Source: Parabacteroides merdae ATCC 43184 | Lineage (GTDB): Bacteria; Bacteroidota; Bacteroidia; Bacteroidales; Tannerellaceae | NCBI RefSeq assembly: GCF_025151215.1 | Contig: NZ_CP102286.1 | Location: forward strand, 1,860,001-1,924,000 | Direction of reading: 5' to 3' | Length of the DNA: 64,000 nucleotides | In this document: positions 5,563-63,660 of the stretch, piece by piece | How the letters are laid out: every line of letters starts with the position of its first letter | Numbering within the stretch: the first letter of the stretch is position 1 | Position numbers and translations under genes: made by a program | The notes under the pieces: model-generated | Database searches by the model: none | What the model was told of the DNA's origin: nothing | The model's input: only the letters and a program-made list of their open reading frames with translations

Positions 5563-6027
5563 CTATTTTCTTGACACTTCCTCTTCCAATCCCGCATACT
5601 CCTCCCTGGCGTCGAAGCAAGGGCAGGCCTTGCGGATGTAAGGACTCAGTTGGCAATGTCCCACTATCTTCGCCTCCGGATAGTCCCGCCGGAGCTGGCG
5701 GAGCAGGTCGAGCAGCGAACATTTCTGGGCGTAGGTACGGGTGTCGGAAGGGGTTCCCGCCTCATCGAGGCCGCCTTCATAACAGATGCCGATGCTCCGG
5801 TCGTTCCACCCGGCTGCATGTGCGCCGATCTGGTTGACGGGACGGCAACGGTGGAGATAGCCGTCGCGGGTGATATAGAAATGATAGCCGATATCGGCAA
5901 ATCCTCTCGCCTTGTGTGAAGCCCGCAAGGCCTCCACCGGGAAATCGCGGTCATAGCGCGTCGCGCTGCAATGAATTATCAGGAGGCGTACCTCCCGATA
6001 ATTCTGATAGAAACATCCCGCCGTCAT
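5563..6027 (-). CDS. N-acetylmuramoyl-L-alanine amidase, phage endolysin (T7 lysozyme-like) type
   Basis: A 154-aa amidase_2 (PGRP-like) zinc enzyme that cleaves the MurNAc-L-Ala bond of peptidoglycan. Likely zinc ligands are H19 (IIHCSAT), H124 (IVGHCQLSP) and C135 (KACPCFD). GYHFYITRDGYLHRCRP and GAHAAGWNDRSIGICYEGG are standard family motifs. There is no signal peptide, as in phage endolysins, so release from the cytoplasm would need a membrane helper. Its ATG overlaps the stop of the 36-aa smalltalk gene by 4 nt (ATGA), implying coupled translation. HU-like and smalltalk genes lie upstream on the same strand. This gene order recurs in Bacteroidales, but its function is not established. 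Confidence 0.9.
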   Translation of the reverse strand: MTAGCFYQNYREVRLLIIHCSATRYDRDFPVEALRASHKARGFADIGYHFYITRDGYLHRCRPVNQIGAHAAGWNDRSIGICYEGGLDEAGTPSDTRTYAQKCSLLDLLRQLRRDYPEAKIVGHCQLSPYIRKACPCFDAREEYAGLEEEVSRK

Positions 6028-6134
6028 AACGAGCAGGCGCTTATGCCGAGCGCACCGGCAATGGCGCTGGCTACGGCGATGATCACTTTGAGGAGCACTC
6101 CCCAGACAGATTTCTTTTCGTTTTTTTGTTCCAT
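6024..6134 (-). CDS. Smalltalk protein (36-aa single-TM peptide)
   Basis: A 36-aa ORF starting MEQKNEKKSVWGVLLK, continuing with a hydrophobic Ala/Ile/Gly-rich helix and ending GISACSL. The charged, Lys-rich N terminus followed by one TM helix and a Cys near the C terminus matches the Bacteroidales 'smalltalk' family, which is named in databases but has no known role. The stop overlaps the amidase start (ATGA at 6024-6027). Size, topology and position immediately before a signal-less endolysin-like amidase suggest a holin- or pinholin-like role; this is inference only. Confidence 0.85.
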   Translation of the reverse strand: MEQKNEKKSVWGVLLKVIIAVASAIAGALGISACSL

Positions 6135-6159
6135 GATGAGATTTATGATTTATGATTTG

Positions 6160-6193
6160 AAAAGCATGGGGCAGGGTCCTGCCCTACGCTTTT
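6160..6193 (-). terminator. Hairpin between HU-like and smalltalk genes
   Basis: AAAAGC (6160-6165) pairs with GCTTTT (6188-6193), enclosing GGGCAGG/CCTGCCC. It lies inside the putative operon and might attenuate or stabilise the smalltalk-amidase message. No long T run follows on the minus strand, so full termination is doubtful. Confidence 0.45.
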
Positions 6194-6224
6194 CTCTTGC
6201 TTTTAATTGTCAATTATCAATTGC

Positions 6225-6731
6225 TTAAAGTTCTCCCGGCCGGTCATCTTCGCCTCCGCTCCCGCCTCCTTCGTTCGGTTTCTTCGACAGGTCGACCGTC
6301 GTCTCGCCTGCTTTCTCGGCACGGAGTACGGCACGTACGGATGCACGGCTGGGTACGGGATTGAAACTCATACCGTTGAAGATCTTTTTCAGATCGTCGC
6401 CGGGAACGAACTGGATATTGACTCCGGTGATATTGGTGGCAGTAAACACCTCCGCGCTATCGGCTCCCCGGCTGGTCGCCTGCAAACGGAACTTGCCCAA
6501 CTCGCCGAAATCGACCTGCTCCCCGTCGCGCAGGGCCTCGATCATATTCTCGACCACACTGATCAACACCGCTGAAACATCCGCACGACTCACGGTCGTC
6601 TGGGCCGCGACACGTTGCGAAAGCCCTTTCAACGTAAGCTCCTTGCTGACCTGCGAACGGGCGTAGGCTTTCTTCGGATCGTCCGGCTTACGCGGATTGC
6701 CTAACAAAACAATACTGTAATTTAATGGCAT
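6225..6731 (-). CDS. HU/IHF-like DNA-binding protein (Bacteroidales HU-HIG type)
   Basis: About 168 aa from MPLNYSIVLLGNPRKP, the typical beginning of this family; an ATG 51 nt upstream is less likely. YARSQVSKELTLKGLSQRVA, then VSRADVSAVLISVVENMIEA and LRDGEQVDFGELGKFRLQ give the HU fold, the last part being the beta-arm entry. The tail is low-complexity Gly/Glu/Asp (NEGGGSGGEDDRPGEL). Such HU relatives are regularly encoded beside smalltalk/amidase pairs in Bacteroides and may condense or mark DNA. It is first in the HU-like, smalltalk, amidase set on the minus strand, divergent from the DUF4248 gene. Confidence 0.85.
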   Translation of the reverse strand: MPLNYSIVLLGNPRKPDDPKKAYARSQVSKELTLKGLSQRVAAQTTVSRADVSAVLISVVENMIEALRDGEQVDFGELGKFRLQATSRGADSAEVFTATNITGVNIQFVPGDDLKKIFNGMSFNPVPSRASVRAVLRAEKAGETTVDLSKKPNEGGGSGGEDDRPGEL

Positions 6732-6939
6732 AACCTTACTTTTTTTAAATGAATACTTCTCTGCTATTAATCTCTGAGACAAAGATACGGCAGGCGCAAA
6801 AGGCGATCGGGAGGCAGGATGAGACAGTGTGAGCCAACCATGAATAAGGTTAGATATATAACCGATTCATGAGCAGAAACACTTCCGTATCCCAGATTTT
6901 TTCCGTATCTTTATAACCATACAATCAAACAGAAAAATC

Positions 6940-7149
6940 ATGAAAATCCGTCCCTACAGCAAGAGCGAACTGGCACAGGCCTATGCACCGGAGATCACCT
7001 CCCAGGCCGCACTGAACCGGCTCGCCGCCTGGATACGCCTGAACCGCCCGCTCACGGAAGCGTTGCGACAGACCGGCTACTACACGAAACAACGGCTCTT
7101 CACCTCCCGGCAGGTGGCACTGATTTTCGAATATCTGGGAGAACCATAG
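6940..7149 (+). CDS. DUF4248 domain protein
   Basis: A 69-aa protein, one DUF4248 domain. It starts MKIRPYSKSELAQAYAPEIT and has LAAWIRLNRPLTEALRQTGY and ending FTSRQVALIFEYLGEP. The pattern (a 'build-up' helix, then an H-T-H-like YSKSELAQAY entry and a final ROVxxIxxxLG-like helix) is usual for the family, which occurs next to VirE/primase proteins in Bacteroidales. The function is unknown; the size and basic/aromatic pattern suggest a small DNA-binding regulator or replication helper. It is transcribed away from the HU-like gene and toward the primase gene's 3' end. Confidence 0.85.
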   Translation: MKIRPYSKSELAQAYAPEITSQAALNRLAAWIRLNRPLTEALRQTGYYTKQRLFTSRQVALIFEYLGEP

Positions 7150-7158
7150 GATGACTCC

Positions 7159-7257
7159 ATGACACGCGGGGAACGCCACGCCTACGAAGAGCACCTCACC
7201 AACGTCGTGATCCTGGAAGACGCCATCGAGACGGCCGAAGAGATCGGGAAGCTATAA
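7159..7257 (+). pseudogene. Remnant of an Rpn-type PD-(D/E)XK nuclease/transposase C terminus
   Basis: A 32-aa reading frame (MTRGERHAYEEHLTN, then ILEDAIETAEEIGKL) resembles the C-terminal region of Rpn-family recombination-promoting nucleases, where MTxEERxAYE is followed by an Ala/Glu-rich helix. The nuclease core and the usual Gly-Arg-rich tail are missing. It lies 9 nt beyond the DUF4248 stop. This may instead be an independent micro-protein; the similarity is short. Confidence 0.4.
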
Positions 7258-7271
7258 CCCTGCCACACCGC

Positions 7272-7359
7272 CCGGCATTCCCATGATTGCCGCCCGGCAT
7301 TTGCAGGAATGCGGGCCGACGTTTGCAGGAACGCAGGCCGGCAATCATGGAAATGCCGG
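7272..7359. repeat. 21-bp inverted repeat enclosing a 19-nt direct repeat
   Basis: Arms at 7272-7292 and 7339-7359 are inverted copies with one mismatch (CCGGCATT...). Between them, TTTGCAGGAATGCGGGCCG (7300-7318) and TTTGCAGGAACGCAGGCCG (7322-7340) are direct repeats with two differences. It is GC-rich and directly precedes the AT-rich 33-bp inverted repeat. Confidence 0.75.
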
Positions 7360-7377
7360 AAGACGGACCTTGCGGGA

Positions 7378-7537
7378 TTTGACACAATTGGCACATTTGA
7401 CATAGGGTTGCTAAACTATATATAGGTAATAATATATATTCAGGTATATACCTATGTAGGTATATTAAATAATTAATTATTTATCTCGCGTATATATATT
7501 TCTACAACCCTATGTCAAATGTGCCAATTGTGTCAAA
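7378..7537. repeat. Perfect 33-bp inverted repeat with 94-nt AT-rich centre
   Basis: The arm at 7378-7410 (starts TTTGACACAATTGGCACATT) is exactly reverse-complementary to 7505-7537. The 94-nt centre is almost purely A/T with TATATA tracts and a TATACCTA-type small palindrome. It lies at the 3' ends of the convergent DUF4248 and primase/helicase genes. It could be a replication origin or processing site for the primase, a two-way terminator or cruciform, or the end pair of a miniature element. No ORF inside. Confidence 0.9.
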
Positions 7538-7559
7538 AAAACGGGCCGGAAGCAAAAAA

Positions 7560-9698
7560 TCACAATCCCAAAGCGCCGGATCTCCGTTCCCTGTCGATAT
7601 CCTCCCCGGTCTTTTTCACTGCGATATAGCCCCTTTTCCCTTTATACCGGATCGATTCGAACTCCAGCCCCGCCATGATACGCCCGATTTTATTCGGACT
7701 CAGGGGGTAACGCAGGCATGAACTGATCTGTTCCAGGATATCGGCCGCCGTGACGAAGATGCCCGCCTCGCCCTCGAACGGTTTGCGGAAATGGGTACGG
7801 ATCAGGTCTTCTTCGAGGTTGGGGACTTCGAAGCGGCTGTTATGCATGTTCAGCTTCCGTATCTCCTCCTGCGAGAACCAGTGGCAGAAACCGCTTTTCC
7901 ACAAGGCATAGGCCTGGCTGTAGACCAGCTCGTAAGGGATGGCATGCAGATGCGGGTCCCGGATCTGCGACACCTCGAAAGGCAACCAGCGGCGGTTGCC
8001 GGTCGGGTCGGTCAGGAACTGGACATTATTGCCCGTGCCGCAAAACGAAGCGATATGCGGATGGCGTTCCTTGTTGCGCCCGTAGGCCGCCCGCTCGTTG
8101 ACGTAGGGCATGGTGACCATCGCCTTCAACTGGTTCAACTCGGCAGGCCGCATGCCGTCGAGCTCCTCGAAACAGATCAGGGCGAATTCGGTAAGGGAAA
8201 AGAGATCGTCCTTATTCAGGCGGTCGCTGTTCGTCTTCGTATAGAAATAGCAGCGCAGTTCGGGTGGCAGCAGGAAGTTGAACCAGGTGGTTTTGTAAAG
8301 CCCCTGTTCGCCGATAAGGACCAGGATCTCATGGTTCACGACCGTATCGTCGAGCAGCGCGGGCAGTATGCCGACAAACCATTTCCGGAAATAGTCCCTA
8401 AACTCCGCCTGGTCGCTTTTGACATGCACCGTATCGGCCAGGTCGCCGATAGGGTCGCTCACGCCGTCCCATGATGGCAAATGGTCGAAATAGGATTGGA
8501 AAGGGTTGAAGAGGGGGACGAACTCGGAATGTATCACATTGTATATATCCGTCAGATAGACGCGTCCCACCGTTTTGTTCATCCGCCCCCAAAGCGTATT
8601 CACGTCACGGTCTGTCAGCGGCAGGAAGCCGGCCTCCTCCGTCCAGCGGATTTCACAATGGTGCGTGATGACATTGTGGCGGAACTCCGCCTGCGAAAAC
8701 AGGAACGCCTCGATCGCCTCCACCTCGGCCGGCTTGTTCGCCTCGTCTGCCTCCCGTCTGCCTTTGCCGCCAGCGCTCCGGGGCAGGCGCACGGAGCCAT
8801 GCTCCTCCTCTCCCGCGTAGCAGGAACGGAAGGTGCTCTCGACGTTCTCCGCGCCATAATCGGCAAACGCCTCGACCGCCCATGCGACGGCCTCCGCCTC
8901 CGGCACGCCATAGAGGTTGAAGAGGTAGCCGGTGCGCATGACATATTCGTTATGGTGGCCCGGCTCATAGCGGATTCCTTCGTCCTCCAGCCGTTTTCCG
9001 GACACCTCGGCCGCCTTGCCCGCCGTTGCGGTATAGCGTCCCGGTTTCGCCTTCTGTCCTTTCGGCCGACCCGGTTTCGCGGAGGGAGCAGGCGGCAGCT
9101 TGACCTGGAGCGGCAGGGCTTCCGGATTGTAATAGGCGTCCGGATCATAAGCCGTACCGCTGATCCGTTCGGGATTCTTGCAACTGCTGTCGTATTCCAG
9201 CCCGGCGAGGCGGGCGAAAAGTTCGTTACCCTGTCGGTAGCCCTCCTGGTAGACCCGGAGCGTCTTCCGATCGGCAGGGTCGGCGTCCGCGACGGAACTG
9301 CCGTCTTCAAAGAGAAAAGCGTAAATGACGCGCAGCCCTCGTCCGCTGATCGTATGGTAGGCCAAAAGGACATGGGGGTCGGCACAGACCGCCGCAAAAG
9401 CCTCCGCCATCCGTTCTTCCGGTATATGATCCAAATCGCAAAGGCTCAAACCGGTATAAGCCTTGATATGCATGCGCTTCCTGCCTCCTTCGCATCGCAC
9501 GGCGGGAGTGAAGGCGGGGCATGAAGTCTTTTCGCAGGCCGACATTTGCTTGTTTCCTACCCGGAGGTAGAAGCGGAATTTCTCGGTACGGTCACGCAAG
9601 TCGGAGTCGGTAGTGATGAGCCGGTAAACACGGTCCAACGTGATCTCCGATGGGGTTGTTTGCTTGAAATTGGCAAACAGGCTGAAAGATTTTTCCAT
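7560..9698 (-). CDS. Primase/helicase-like protein: BT4734-type N terminus plus VirE P-loop domain
   Basis: About 712 aa from MEKSFSLFANFKQTT. Domains in order: a BT4734/VirE N-terminal domain with prim-pol-like motifs (SLCDLDHIPEERM near residue 86, TISGRGLRVIYAF near 116), a linker rich in Lys/Pro, a primase-C-terminal-like segment (RTGYLFNLYGVPEAEAVAWA), then a VirE/SF3-like ATPase with Walker A IGEQGLYKTTWF, Walker B ALICFEELDGM and the motif TGNNVQFLTDPTGNRRWLPF, and a C-terminal DUF3874-like domain. The Walker A has Tyr where Gly is usual, as in relatives. This layout is that of phage-satellite and integrative-element replication proteins. It ends next to the large inverted repeats. Confidence 0.85.
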   Translation of the reverse strand: MEKSFSLFANFKQTTPSEITLDRVYRLITTDSDLRDRTEKFRFYLRVGNKQMSACEKTSCPAFTPAVRCEGGRKRMHIKAYTGLSLCDLDHIPEERMAEAFAAVCADPHVLLAYHTISGRGLRVIYAFLFEDGSSVADADPADRKTLRVYQEGYRQGNELFARLAGLEYDSSCKNPERISGTAYDPDAYYNPEALPLQVKLPPAPSAKPGRPKGQKAKPGRYTATAGKAAEVSGKRLEDEGIRYEPGHHNEYVMRTGYLFNLYGVPEAEAVAWAVEAFADYGAENVESTFRSCYAGEEEHGSVRLPRSAGGKGRREADEANKPAEVEAIEAFLFSQAEFRHNVITHHCEIRWTEEAGFLPLTDRDVNTLWGRMNKTVGRVYLTDIYNVIHSEFVPLFNPFQSYFDHLPSWDGVSDPIGDLADTVHVKSDQAEFRDYFRKWFVGILPALLDDTVVNHEILVLIGEQGLYKTTWFNFLLPPELRCYFYTKTNSDRLNKDDLFSLTEFALICFEELDGMRPAELNQLKAMVTMPYVNERAAYGRNKERHPHIASFCGTGNNVQFLTDPTGNRRWLPFEVSQIRDPHLHAIPYELVYSQAYALWKSGFCHWFSQEEIRKLNMHNSRFEVPNLEEDLIRTHFRKPFEGEAGIFVTAADILEQISSCLRYPLSPNKIGRIMAGLEFESIRYKGKRGYIAVKKTGEDIDRERRSGALGL

Positions 9699-9841: not shown

Positions 9842-10116
9842 ATGACAAAAGACTTCAAAAATCCCGGCCTAATCAGCCAAGTTGCCGAATTCATCGACAA
9901 GAAAAGGATCGAAGAGGGCATCAGCATCGACACCCTCTGCCAATCGGCCCACATCAGCAAACGTATCTACATAGACTTTAAAAGGGGCTGAAGCCGGCAA
10001 CGACGCTCCACTGGTTCTTCCGCCTCGCAAATGCCCTCAGCCAGCACACGGACGAAGAAAAATTCAAGGAAATATGGTTGGAAATCGCGAAAATAATGAC
10101 TAACTTAGAGGAGTAA
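9842..10116 (+). pseudogene. Frameshifted small HTH regulator-like gene
   Basis: The frame starting at 9842 (MTKDFKNPGLISQVAEFIDK) runs 49 codons to TGA at 9989. Continuing in the -1 frame from 9982 gives KGLKPATTLHWFFRLANA and ends at 10116 (IMTNLEE stop), restoring a protein of about 91 aa with a helix-turn-helix-like middle (ISIDTLCQSAHISKRIYIDF). The break sits in an AAAAGGGG tract and would be explained by loss of one A. It precedes the PBP1C gene by 13 nt. A sequencing error is possible; a programmed -1 shift is not supported, as the heptamer is in the wrong phase. Confidence 0.6.
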
Positions 10117-10129
10117 AACCAAATGGCGA

Positions 10130-12475
10130 ATGATTGTCTTCCACCTGTTTTTCATAAAGCTGCTGATAGGAACGGTCCTGCATCTGACCGCCCCCCGGAC
10201 ACTCTTTCCGGAGGCCTGCTCCACCCTGCTCTATTCTTCCGACGGGCAGTTGTTAGGGGCACGGATCGCACCGGACGGGCAATGGCGTTTCCCTCCGGCA
10301 GACAGTCTTCCCGGCAAGTTCGTGACCTGCCTGCTGACCTACGAAGACAAACGTTTCTTCCGGCATTCGGGAGTAGACCCGGTTGCCATCGTCCGAGCCA
10401 TGCGGATCAACCTCAGCCGGGGCAAGGTCGTCAGCGGGGGGAGCACGATCACCATGCAACTGGCACGGATCGCGCGGGGCAACCGCGACCGTACCCTGTA
10501 TGAAAAAATGGTCGAAACCGGCTACGCCCTTCTCCTGGAAACAGTCTGCGGCAAACATCAGATCCTGAACCTCTATGCCTCGCACGCCCCGTTCGGAGGG
10601 AATGTGATAGGCATCGAGACGGCGGCCTGGCGTTATTTCGGGCGAAGCGCTGCCGACCTCTCGTGGGCCGAAAGCGCCACACTCGCCGTCCTGCCCAACT
10701 CGCCCGCCCTGATCCATCCCGGACGTAACCGGGCACGGCTGAAAGCCAAACGCGACAAGCTCCTGACCGCCTTGAAGGAGAGAGGGATACTGGACGAAAC
10801 CGAATACGGGCTGTCGCTCCTCGAACCGCTTCCCGAAGCGCCCGTGCCTCTGCCCGACGAAGCCCCTCACCTGCTCGAACGGTTGGCGGCCGACGCTCCG
10901 GGAACGCGTATCACGACCTCCGTCAACCGGATGTTGCAACGCCAGACACAGGAGATCGTCAACCGCTACGCCCGCGACTACGCCTCCAACCACATCCATA
11001 ACCTGGCCGCCCTCATCGCCGATGCCGAAACGGGCGAGGTGCTGGCCTATGCGGGAAACGTCACTTTCAAGGCCGACGCCCGCAAAGGGAACCAGGTAGA
11101 CATCATCACTTCGCCACGCAGCACGGGCAGCATCCTGAAGCCCTTTCTTTATGCCGCCATGCTACACGACGGGCTGCTGCTCCCCGGTACGCTCGTTTCA
11201 GACGTCCCCCTAAACCTGAACGGCTTCTCGCCGCAAAACTACAACAAGACGTTCTACGGGGCGGTCCCGGCACACCGGGCGATCGAACGTTCGCTCAACG
11301 TCCCGCTGGTACGGATGCTTTCGGCCTACAACACGGGGCGGTTCATGTCGCTGCTGAAAAAGGCGGGCATGACCACGCTGCGCTTTTCCGAAGAGCATTA
11401 CGGGGCTTCGCTGATCCTGGGAGGCGCCGAAGGGACGTTATGGGACCTCACCGGCATGTATGCTTCACTGGCGCGTACGCTCGCACATTACCGGACTTAC
11501 AACGGGCGGTATGACCCGGCGGATATTCATCCGCTCACTCCTTACCCGGCTCCTCCGGCCGACCCGGTCCGCTCGGTCGCCGACAAAAGGCTTACGGACA
11601 AGCCGTTCCTCTCCGCCGCCTCCATCTGGTTCGCCTTCGAAGCGATGTCGGCACTGAACCGCCCTGAAGAAGAGGCGGACTGGCAGCAGTTCGGCTCCAT
11701 GAAGCAGGTGGCCTGGAAAACGGGGACGAGCTATGGCGGGCGGGACGCCTGGGCGATCGGGACAACCCCGCGCTATACGGTCGGCGTATGGGTGGGCAAC
11801 GCTTCGGGAGAAGGCCGGCCGGGACTGACAGGCGTGGGCAATGCCGCTCCCGTCCTCTTCGACCTGTTCTCGCTCCTTCCGGGAAGCGGCTGGTTCGACA
11901 TGCCTTACGACGAACTCCTCCCGATGGCCATCTGCCGTCTCAGCGGGCACAAGGCATCCGCTATCTGTGACCGGGTAGACACGCTCTACATGCCGCGCTC
12001 GGCCGACAAGACGGAAGTCTGCCCCTACCACCGGCTTGTCCATCTTTCTGCGGACGGCCGTTTCCGGGTGAACAGCTCGTGCGAGTCGGTCGGCCGGATG
12101 ATCGCACGCCCGTGGTTCGTACTGCCTCCTTCCGAAGAATATTATTACCGGAACTATCATATCGACTACGCTCCCCTGCCTCCTGTCAAACCGGGATGTG
12201 GCGAAGACAGGGGCCGGCAGATCGAACTGATCTATCCGGAGCATAACGCCATCCTTTATCTTCCGAAAGGCTTCTCCGGCAAACGGGAGCAGTTTGTCTT
12301 CAAAGCTGCCCACGCCCGTCCGGATGCCATCCTCTACTGGCATCTCGACGACACGTATGCCGGCGAAACGACAGACCACCACCAGATCAGCTTCTCCGCT
12401 TCCCCCGGCAAACATCGCCTGACGCTGATCGACGACCAGGGCAATCGAAAGACAATATCGTTCGAGGTGAAATAA
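10130..12475 (+). CDS. pbpC: Penicillin-binding protein 1C
   Basis: A 781-aa bifunctional-type PBP. The order is an N-terminal signal anchor (VFHLFFIKLLIGTVLHL), a GT51 glycosyltransferase (YEDKRFFRHSGVDPVAIVRA, GGSTITMQLARI), a transpeptidase with active-site SxxK in RSTGSILKPFLYAAML, SxN-like SLNVPLV and KTGTSYGGRDAW, and a C-terminal BiPBP_C-like domain. The length is close to E. coli PBP1C (770 aa). No in-frame start exists upstream because TAG at 10106 closes the frame. It polymerises peptidoglycan in the periplasm. It stands alone behind the broken HTH gene, with GC-rich codon use like the preceding cassette. Confidence 0.93.
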   Translation: MIVFHLFFIKLLIGTVLHLTAPRTLFPEACSTLLYSSDGQLLGARIAPDGQWRFPPADSLPGKFVTCLLTYEDKRFFRHSGVDPVAIVRAMRINLSRGKVVSGGSTITMQLARIARGNRDRTLYEKMVETGYALLLETVCGKHQILNLYASHAPFGGNVIGIETAAWRYFGRSAADLSWAESATLAVLPNSPALIHPGRNRARLKAKRDKLLTALKERGILDETEYGLSLLEPLPEAPVPLPDEAPHLLERLAADAPGTRITTSVNRMLQRQTQEIVNRYARDYASNHIHNLAALIADAETGEVLAYAGNVTFKADARKGNQVDIITSPRSTGSILKPFLYAAMLHDGLLLPGTLVSDVPLNLNGFSPQNYNKTFYGAVPAHRAIERSLNVPLVRMLSAYNTGRFMSLLKKAGMTTLRFSEEHYGASLILGGAEGTLWDLTGMYASLARTLAHYRTYNGRYDPADIHPLTPYPAPPADPVRSVADKRLTDKPFLSAASIWFAFEAMSALNRPEEEADWQQFGSMKQVAWKTGTSYGGRDAWAIGTTPRYTVGVWVGNASGEGRPGLTGVGNAAPVLFDLFSLLPGSGWFDMPYDELLPMAICRLSGHKASAICDRVDTLYMPRSADKTEVCPYHRLVHLSADGRFRVNSSCESVGRMIARPWFVLPPSEEYYYRNYHIDYAPLPPVKPGCGEDRGRQIELIYPEHNAILYLPKGFSGKREQFVFKAAHARPDAILYWHLDDTYAGETTDHHQISFSASPGKHRLTLIDDQGNRKTISFEVK

Positions 12476-12518
12476 TCAAAACAGTTTCTAAAAAAGGCTC
12501 TTTCTGTAAAGTTTTTAC

Positions 12519-12526
12519 TACCTTTG
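12519..12526 (+). promoter_or_regulatory. Bacteroidetes -7 element upstream of the 2-oxoacid oxidoreductase operon
   Basis: TACCTTTG matches the TAnnTTTG -7 consensus and lies 54 nt before the ferredoxin-subunit start. A clear TTTG -33 box at 19-21 nt spacing was not seen. Confidence 0.45.
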
Positions 12527-12579
12527 GCAGTCGCAAATGAGATAGTTAGTGTTACATTAGTTTTTAAATATAATAAATT

Positions 12580-34095: not shown

Positions 34096-34326
34096 CAAAA
34101 AAAGAGGATATGCCTGTTCTGACATATCCTCCTATGTAAAGAAAGCCGCACCGTAGATATGAACAAACTCCGTATGACAGGATTTGAGTGCTTTGCCATC
34201 TTTGTAATCCGCCGTGCTAAGCATGCCCCGAAGGGTGCGGCCCGCCATTGACGACAAGAGCTGTGTCTCGGAATTAAAATAAACTGATGAGTTTCCCAAT
34301 CGAACATGTGCGGCTAACTCATTTTT
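34096..34326 (-). ncRNA. Bacteroidales-1-like small RNA
   Basis: A non-coding transcript of about 230 nt lies just downstream of rplT, with its own promoter and terminator. The promoter has TTTG, 20 nt, TATCTTTG (34334-34365), so the RNA should start near 34326. The 3' end is a 9-bp hairpin (GAGGATATG at 34104-34112 with CATATCCTC at 34123-34131) followed by a T run. The interior has GC-rich foldable segments (CCGCACCC/GGGTGCGG near 34238). The Rfam Bacteroidales-1 motif is described as having exactly this setting: a Bacteroidetes promoter, a terminator and a place downstream of L20. It has been discussed as a 6S-like RNA (from memory). I have not aligned it. Confidence 0.75.
34097..34131 (-). 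terminator. Terminator of the Bacteroidales-1-like RNA
   Basis: A 9-bp stem GAGGATATG/CATATCCTC with a 10-nt loop; on the minus strand a run of seven T follows (34097-34103 as A on plus). Confidence 0.85.
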
Positions 34327-63503: not shown

Positions 63504-63526
63504 CTGCCGTAATAACAACAAAAGTC

Positions 63527-63589
63527 ATGAGAACAATTATAGTAAATACATATTGGTGGTGGCGCTCTTTACAACTCATAAGGTCGTAA
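63527..63589 (+). CDS. trpL: Trp operon leader peptide
   Basis: 20 aa, MRTIIVNTYWWWRSLQLIRS. Codons 10-12 (63554-63562) are TGG TGG TGG. The ATG is the closest start before them and follows the mapped promoter by about 17 nt. Its stop is 38 nt before the terminator stem, a spacing suited to stalling control. An in-frame ATG farther upstream lies before the promoter and would not be transcribed. Confidence 0.85.
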   Translation: MRTIIVNTYWWWRSLQLIRS

Positions 63590-63627
63590 GGAACCAGTCC
63601 TCATGTATATACTATCATGATATAATA

Positions 63628-63660
63628 AAAGGTCTGTCGCACTTGCGGCAGGCCTTTTTT
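63628..63660 (+). terminator. Attenuator terminator before trpB
   Basis: AAAGGTCTGTCGC (63628-63640) pairs with GCGGCAGGCCTTT (63645-63657), 13 bp including two G-U pairs with loop ACTT, followed by T's. Confidence 0.92.

Follow-up and report, generated by a model that had tools for sequence, protein, structure and literature searches.

The question raised by this locus is what a replication gene and candidate lysis genes are doing together on a bacterial chromosome. The locus is a five-gene cassette near the start of a 64-kb window, by which we mean the whole stretch of 64,000 nucleotides analysed from Parabacteroides merdae ATCC 43184, whose genome is 4.38 Mb in one contig. A preliminary description, made from the sequence alone, had seen a replication-plus-lysis gene set here and had proposed a domesticated satellite or DNA-release module. 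The open reading frame list and Pfam-type profile matches confirm the placement and identity of all five genes and bear out both sides of that set, a primase-helicase on the one and an amidase with a smalltalk peptide on the other. From the likeness of its initiator and predicted origin to those of phage-inducible chromosomal islands (PICIs) and Staphylococcus aureus pathogenicity islands (SaPIs), we suggest, with a probability of about 0.6, that the cassette is a satellite replicon of this type, parked in the chromosome without an integrase and joined to a lysis pair. The genes and the predicted origin are as follows.

5563-6027, minus strand: Amidase_2, a T7-lysozyme-like N-acetylmuramoyl-L-alanine amidase and candidate endolysin (E 6.9e-19)
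6024-6134, minus strand: smalltalk (DUF6486), 36 aa, candidate holin-like partner (profile match)
6225-6731, minus strand: HU-HIG DNA-binding protein (E 4e-32)
6940-7149, plus strand: DUF4248 protein, 69 aa, convergent with VirE (E 2.7e-28)
7272-7359, no strand: GC-rich inverted repeat with 30-nt arms, adjoining the predicted origin and present with it in a solo block elsewhere in the genome (524.6 kb)
7378-7407, plus strand: second inverted iteron set, identical on the other strand (repeat and tandem analysis)
7408-7507, no strand: AT-rich core lying between the iteron sets of the predicted origin (AT 0.76 over the 116 nt taken as core)
7508-7537, minus strand: iteron set beside the VirE stop, three 9-bp repeats TTGACACAA / TTGGCACAT / TTGACATAG (tandem period 9)
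7560-9698, minus strand: VirE (712 aa), a BT4734-like PrimPol with a VapE-type helicase, predicted to act as replication initiator and primase-helicase (E 7.8e-34 and 2.3e-31)

Two large inverted repeats lie between the DUF4248 and VirE genes, one with 47-nt arms (91%) and one with 30-nt arms (87%). Both had been pointed out in the preliminary description and both are real, the first standing far above shuffles and controls. One of its arms starts 22 nt downstream of the VirE stop and is followed by a 66-nt spacer and the second 47-nt arm, and its score of 37 compares with 8.4 +/- 1.1 for shuffles and with a maximum of 27 in 551 control 3' flanks. The three 9-bp repeats form the outer part of each arm, with a tandem signal of p=0.002 in both (base shuffles). 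In the passages of PMC6092414 on which we draw, the PICI origin lies directly 3' of rep and has two iteron sets around an AT-rich region. The cassette shares this arrangement, in that the initiator is followed at once by an origin-like block with two iteron sets and an AT-rich core. The idea that the inverted repeat is an origin is thus supported by the iterons flanking the AT-rich core, by recurrence in other loci and by the PICI-like layout, and we treat it as a predicted origin.

The likeness extends to the initiator. The helicase half of VirE is closest to PriRep1, its best match both by sequence and by structure, and we take PriRep1 to be staphylococcal. The primase half is a BT4734-type PrimPol, which sets the cassette apart from PICI and SaPI systems, as do the linked lysis pair and HU gene, its stay at chromosomal sites, and the lack, among the genes tested, of an integrase, an attachment site, terS or a known interference gene. 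The locus would work like a PICI replicon, but we do not file it as a PICI, because a search for an integrase, an attachment site and genes for packaging found none. A fused primase-helicase initiator also recalls the P4-type alpha protein, which joins both activities and acts as initiator (PMC7145576), and VapE helicases, but the phage relatives of VirE are distant: 423 records match, all with less than 60% identity, and 3 of them cover at least 80% of VirE.

The anatomy of the locus suggests how such a replicon might act. The trigger would be phage or stress. VirE, whose PrimPol primase is fused to a helicase like PriRep1, would bind the 9-bp iterons of its own origin (7378-7407 and 7508-7537) and would then melt the AT-rich core, so that local replication begins. 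HU, with its acidic tail, might shape the origin or recruit there, and the amidase, helped by the smalltalk membrane peptide, would open the wall and release DNA. The tail of the HU-HIG protein is Gly-rich and acidic and terminates in EDDRPGEL, resembling the acidic tip of SSB-type proteins. Cassette HU tails are mostly of this Gly-rich acidic kind (EDDRPGEL, DDRPVIE, GEAPDPAA), and none such occurs among the listed HU partners in two-gene HU-VirE loci.

That the genes travel together, the point on which the preliminary description had itself staked its reading, was borne out. An HU gene and a peptidoglycan hydrolase gene lie within 6.5 kb of 23 of the 26 DUF4248-linked VirE genes, a count that includes split-frame VirE genes in the L064 and L082 assemblies and is no random sample, since loci were drawn by VirE similarity or via DUF4248. 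By comparison, none of the 23 VirE genes without DUF4248 has a hydrolase, and 16 have HU. The hydrolase was an amidase in 9 of the 23 complete loci and a glucosaminidase (PF01832) in 14, and three loci (L107, L109 and L112) have, in VirE's place, a different type of primase-helicase, in L107 a Toprim plus DnaB protein. The cassette genes are therefore a recurrent unit in which the hydrolase can be interchanged (smalltalk plus amidase, or glucosaminidase) and VirE can be replaced by a Toprim-DnaB type. Profile matches in the source genome comprise 8 BT4734-type genes, 11 of DUF4248 at 10 places, 14 HU-HIG, 2 smalltalk and 3 Amidase_2, with a second complete cassette at 2.13 Mb (L023). VirE matches at 1e-40 were present in 20 of the 59 genomes searched and DUF4248 in 16 of 247 genomes drawn from the order (own genome included in both). 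Six records labelled as phage or plasmid (MT836811, MT836553, MT837259, MT836259, NZ_OY725823 and NZ_OY725958) carry cassette genes and look chromosomal.

Inverted repeats like that of the window recur in the same position. Repeats scoring at least 15 within about 205 nt 3' of the VirE stop were found in 14 of 26 cassettes, in 0 of 23 other VirE loci and in 34 of 551 controls (cassettes against controls, Fisher 5.2e-10), where the threshold of 15 was chosen after the scores were seen, and where L113 and L073 carry an identical repeat, the count being 13/25 with L113 left out. Eleven of the 14 have a span of 135-160 nt, 13 of the 25 loci tested have tandem iterons in the left arm (p<0.05), and the Toprim-DnaB gene of L107 likewise has an iteron repeat after it. 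Mismatches between the arms (691 positions, 20 loci) were G.T in 23 cases, A.C in 17 and other in 64; this lack of a G.T excess, the mark of RNA wobble, points to DNA and gives no sign of an RNA stem. The iterons themselves vary by locus, being GGTGATA in L023, TTGACACCC in L063, GGGGGCGGAT in L069 and L072, AGGGCGCAA in L071 and L073 and GTGAAGGA-like in L066, whose VirE is non-convergent. The close VirE pairs L023/L065, L071/L073 and L069/L072 have common iterons; two close pairs involving L074 show low iteron similarity, apparently owing to the register picked. A repeat with 40-nt arms around a 32-nt spacer, each arm with a tandem signal, was also seen in L114 (B. finegoldii) between 8195 and 8288, at the amidase end of the cassette (pflA side) and not after VirE; the L114 gene served as a control in the orientation test.

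A number of results weigh against a satellite replicon with its own origin. In twelve of the 26 cassettes no repeat after VirE reaches a score of 15, and in L025, L132, L117, L124, L134 and L082 nothing there rises above shuffles. Tandem repeats in both arms (p<0.05) occur in 7/14 cassettes and in 2/23 convergent controls, and an iteron repeat accompanies 1 of 16 Prim-type genes, that of L107 only. Iteron similarity follows VirE identity weakly (rho 0.21, p 0.06, over 78 non-independent pairs). Among the 27 loci fetched via DUF4248 in other genomes (L115-L141), which are part of 36 DUF4248 matches in those genomes, primase, HU and hydrolase were together in 6, some of them in 11 and none in 10, although the profiles, built from window genes and so seeded from this genus, may overlook distant members. 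The ratio of non-synonymous to synonymous substitution (dN/dS) is on the high side for VirE between L071 and L073 (0.40) and for a small membrane frame between L028 and L125 (0.74). Neither an attachment site nor a packaging signal was found, and neither was an integrase or a terminase. Finally, the high-scoring repeats follow orientation, with 14 of 18 where VirE is convergent with DUF4248 and 0 of 8 in other arrangements, which would also be expected from a terminator between convergent genes.

One could therefore suppose that the inverted repeat is a mere strong bidirectional terminator, and the cassette a slowly evolving prophage remnant that does not replicate, which we think unlikely. 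Convergent control genes do score high more often than co-directional ones (23/165 against 10/329), as terminators would, and the source genome holds DUF4248 copies with internal stops, as a remnant might. Yet a score of at least 15 is still far more frequent in convergent cassettes than in convergent controls (14/18 against 23/165; 3e-8), and the control repeats are nearly all short, a span of at least 120 nt being reached by 1 of 165 as against 11 of 18 convergent cassettes (Fisher 2.6e-12). The arms contain iterons, show no G.U excess, and HU-VirE pairs that lack DUF4248 all score below 15. Against a remnant, most dN/dS values are far below 1: between L023 and L065 they are 0.12 for the amidase, 0.14 for smalltalk, 0.09 for HU, 0.03 for DUF4248 and 0.27 for VirE, and between the window and L063 they range from 0.09 to 0.36 with dS of 0.7-1.6. 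The cassette is under purifying selection. We keep the origin reading, with the terminator named as its rival, and because the two halves of the orientation control pull opposite ways our confidence in the satellite replicon is unchanged by it.

The cassette also appears to be mosaic. Between L069 and L070, two loci of one genome, dS is 0.04 for HU and 1.04 for VirE, and the switch in identity falls at the origin (7494 to 7718 in L069), so that VirE with its origin and the DUF4248-HU-hydrolase genes appear to recombine as separate blocks. The flanks of L025 and L132 are 94% identical over 5.8 kb, the cassettes at this same site just 73%, and these alleles appear either to have been replaced or to be diverging fast.

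The origin block is also found by itself. The search covered two origins, those of the window and of L069, in 38 genomes belonging to the genus, and 7277-7535 of the window proved to be copied alone in its own genome (263 bp, 86.7%).

G000:C1:524592-524855 (L154 8593-8855), no strand: two-repeat origin block without cassette genes

This solo block sits between SusD-like and EamA-like genes (named by eye), with no cassette genes in the 18 kb fetched around it. The L069 block has a copy in genome G018 at 3.81 Mb (L171 8663-8932; 88% over 270 bp), adjoining a gene named by eye as hppA and again with no cassette genes in 18 kb. Lone copies in two families would suit a transposable repeat of the miniature inverted-repeat transposable element (MITE) kind that had inserted beside VirE and is not an origin. 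We consider this very unlikely, as many cassettes have a block of this kind in the same position behind the VirE stop, with a different sequence each time, and as genome G004 has a VirE-origin-DUF4248 set at the very gene where G018 holds its solo block. This fits gene loss, and it is for this reason that the G018 block is probably a remnant. Both solo copies are the same two-repeat block, an outcome not favoured by random decay.

On the lysis side, the best matches of the amidase in the Protein Data Bank were to T7 lysozyme (1aro and 1lba; E 1.8e-25), aligned through IHCSAT, GYHF and KACP, motifs whose residues we take to be zinc ligands and catalytic and which are intact in the amidase. As had been described, the protein is signal-less, no N-terminal hydrophobic stretch being visible by eye, and its relatives occur in 1679 phage records. 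The smalltalk peptide has one hydrophobic segment (hydropathy) and its gene overlaps the amidase start by 4 nt. In its signal-less amidase with intact motifs, and in the overlap of a small hydrophobic peptide gene with the hydrolase gene, the pair resembles phage holin-endolysin cassettes with a T7 lysozyme-type amidase (PHROG 822); it differs from them in that smalltalk is no known holin, the hydrolase class varies between cassettes and no structural genes were found nearby. Glucosaminidase-type cassettes lack smalltalk, and many of them have other small membrane-type frames beside the hydrolase, for instance an N-terminal amphipathic 'EFI-ALL-FLF'-like peptide. In nine loci a frame that overlaps was seen by eye, its hydrophobic segments separated by an 'ETEVTLAAIGA'-like stretch. 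Read by eye, the frame list suggests that the hydrolases are paired with membrane partners. Downstream of the glucosaminidase in L071 two frames overlap (12241-12546 and 12251-12505), one with two hydrophobic segments, and similar overlapping frames are present in L024, L027, L028, L073, L074, L113, L117 and L125; these are possible overlapping lysis genes. The glucosaminidase cassettes of L024, L025, L067-L070 and L072 lie 3' of genes for secreted-looking proteins of ~920-1280 aa, which are similar in their 5' region and C-terminal end and dissimilar in the middle.

A lysis pair joined to a primase-helicase of the type used by satellites, under purifying selection and in several different versions per genome, could also serve abortive infection or another satellite-derived defence, in which phage is sensed, VirE replicates in place and the amidase lyses the cell early to protect the population. 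The PrimPol half matches the PADLOC models PrimPol (Cas-associated) and RTasVirE-PriCT2 (DRT), which would agree with this, but the six other proteins scanned gave no PADLOC match, the neighbours tested include no reverse transcriptase or Cas gene, and no sensor gene was identified. We judge a defence role to be rather improbable.

How, then, does the proposed integrase-less replicon sit in the chromosome? The cassette is flanked by an FtsX-type permease gene and by a gene for a pbpC-like penicillin-binding protein (transglycosylase/transpeptidase), and the neighbours tested beyond these (HIT, TIM barrel, ABC, ferredoxin and POR) are all ordinary. The window genes tested matched no family of integrases, capsid proteins or terminases, in keeping with the preliminary description, nor any family of terS, packaging or interference genes, and the 64-kb window holds no tRNA gene. 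In 1-kb windows the GC content of the cassette is 0.50-0.61, against 0.60-0.63 for the adjacent pbpC, which is common to relatives. The earlier argument that a GC-rich cassette had been acquired thus falls, as its GC is not distinct from that of this neighbour, whilst the satellite-like character proposed with it is supported. Two close relatives, whose pbpC is 96% and 93% identical, have no cassette between FtsX and pbpC, which lie ~0.6-0.7 kb apart there, and of the 28 genomes in which pbpC was found, the upstream region was fetched for 20 others, none of which shows the cassette there (one region being just 1.6 kb). Against G020, homology stops on the left near 5577 and resumes on the right near 10053, within a broken frame:

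9842-10117, plus strand: small helix-turn-helix (HTH)-like frame divergent from VirE, candidate remnant regulator (by eye, no Pfam match)

The frame is broken at ~9988, and the G020 relative aligns only to its 3' end; divergent HTH-like frames were also read by eye in L066, L111 and L115. Against G013, clear right-hand homology begins only near 10145. No clean element end emerges from the site comparison, and with so ragged a right breakpoint gain in this genome is indistinguishable from loss in the two relatives.

DUF4248 also occurs outside cassettes. A tyrosine integrase lies within ~1.6 kb in 6 of 10 DUF4248 loci that lack cassette genes, and the integrase profile (E <= 1e-5) has no match in any full-cassette locus, the window's first 20 kb included; DUF4248 may accordingly have come from integrative elements, as a partner that binds DNA. 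A fold search with the protein came back empty. At the integrase-adjacent loci (L120, L123, L127, L129, L130 and L135) it is a possible excisionase-like partner.

Groups of the same adjacent families (BT4734/BF3469, DUF4248, HU and amidase or glucosaminidase) are annotated in Bacteroidales, for example beside pflAB in B. finegoldii, with no function assigned in annotation. We found no account of an origin, lysis pair or satellite link for them in the open-licence literature searched, and the portions consulted of papers on DUF4248 and smalltalk (PMC10434189, PMC6231650) and on BT4734 (PMC5862659) do not describe this unit. Such groups are frequent in the lineage, with 8 BT4734 genes and 10 DUF4248 places in this genome, they have no function that we found in print, and they become experimentally tractable through a short origin whose iterons can be named. 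If the satellite reading is correct, PICI-type replicons extend to Bacteroidales, without integration or packaging genes and with lysis genes, and this would bear on the spread of surface loci and on what opens these cells. As a more speculative idea, to which we give little credence at present, Bacteroidales might hold many parked modules of initiator, private origin and lysis pair, without integrase or capsid, many of them close to surface loci of a variable kind (capsule, SusCD, giant secreted proteins). On a trigger, these would amplify the adjacent chromosomal DNA where it lies and set it free to be taken up or packaged by phage, by which surface loci would spread; solo origins would then be sites of amplification that a module elsewhere serves in trans.

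Elsewhere the window carries a Bacteroidales-1 6S-like RNA (34138-34315, minus strand) and a trp peptide leader (63507-63638, plus strand), both ordinary.

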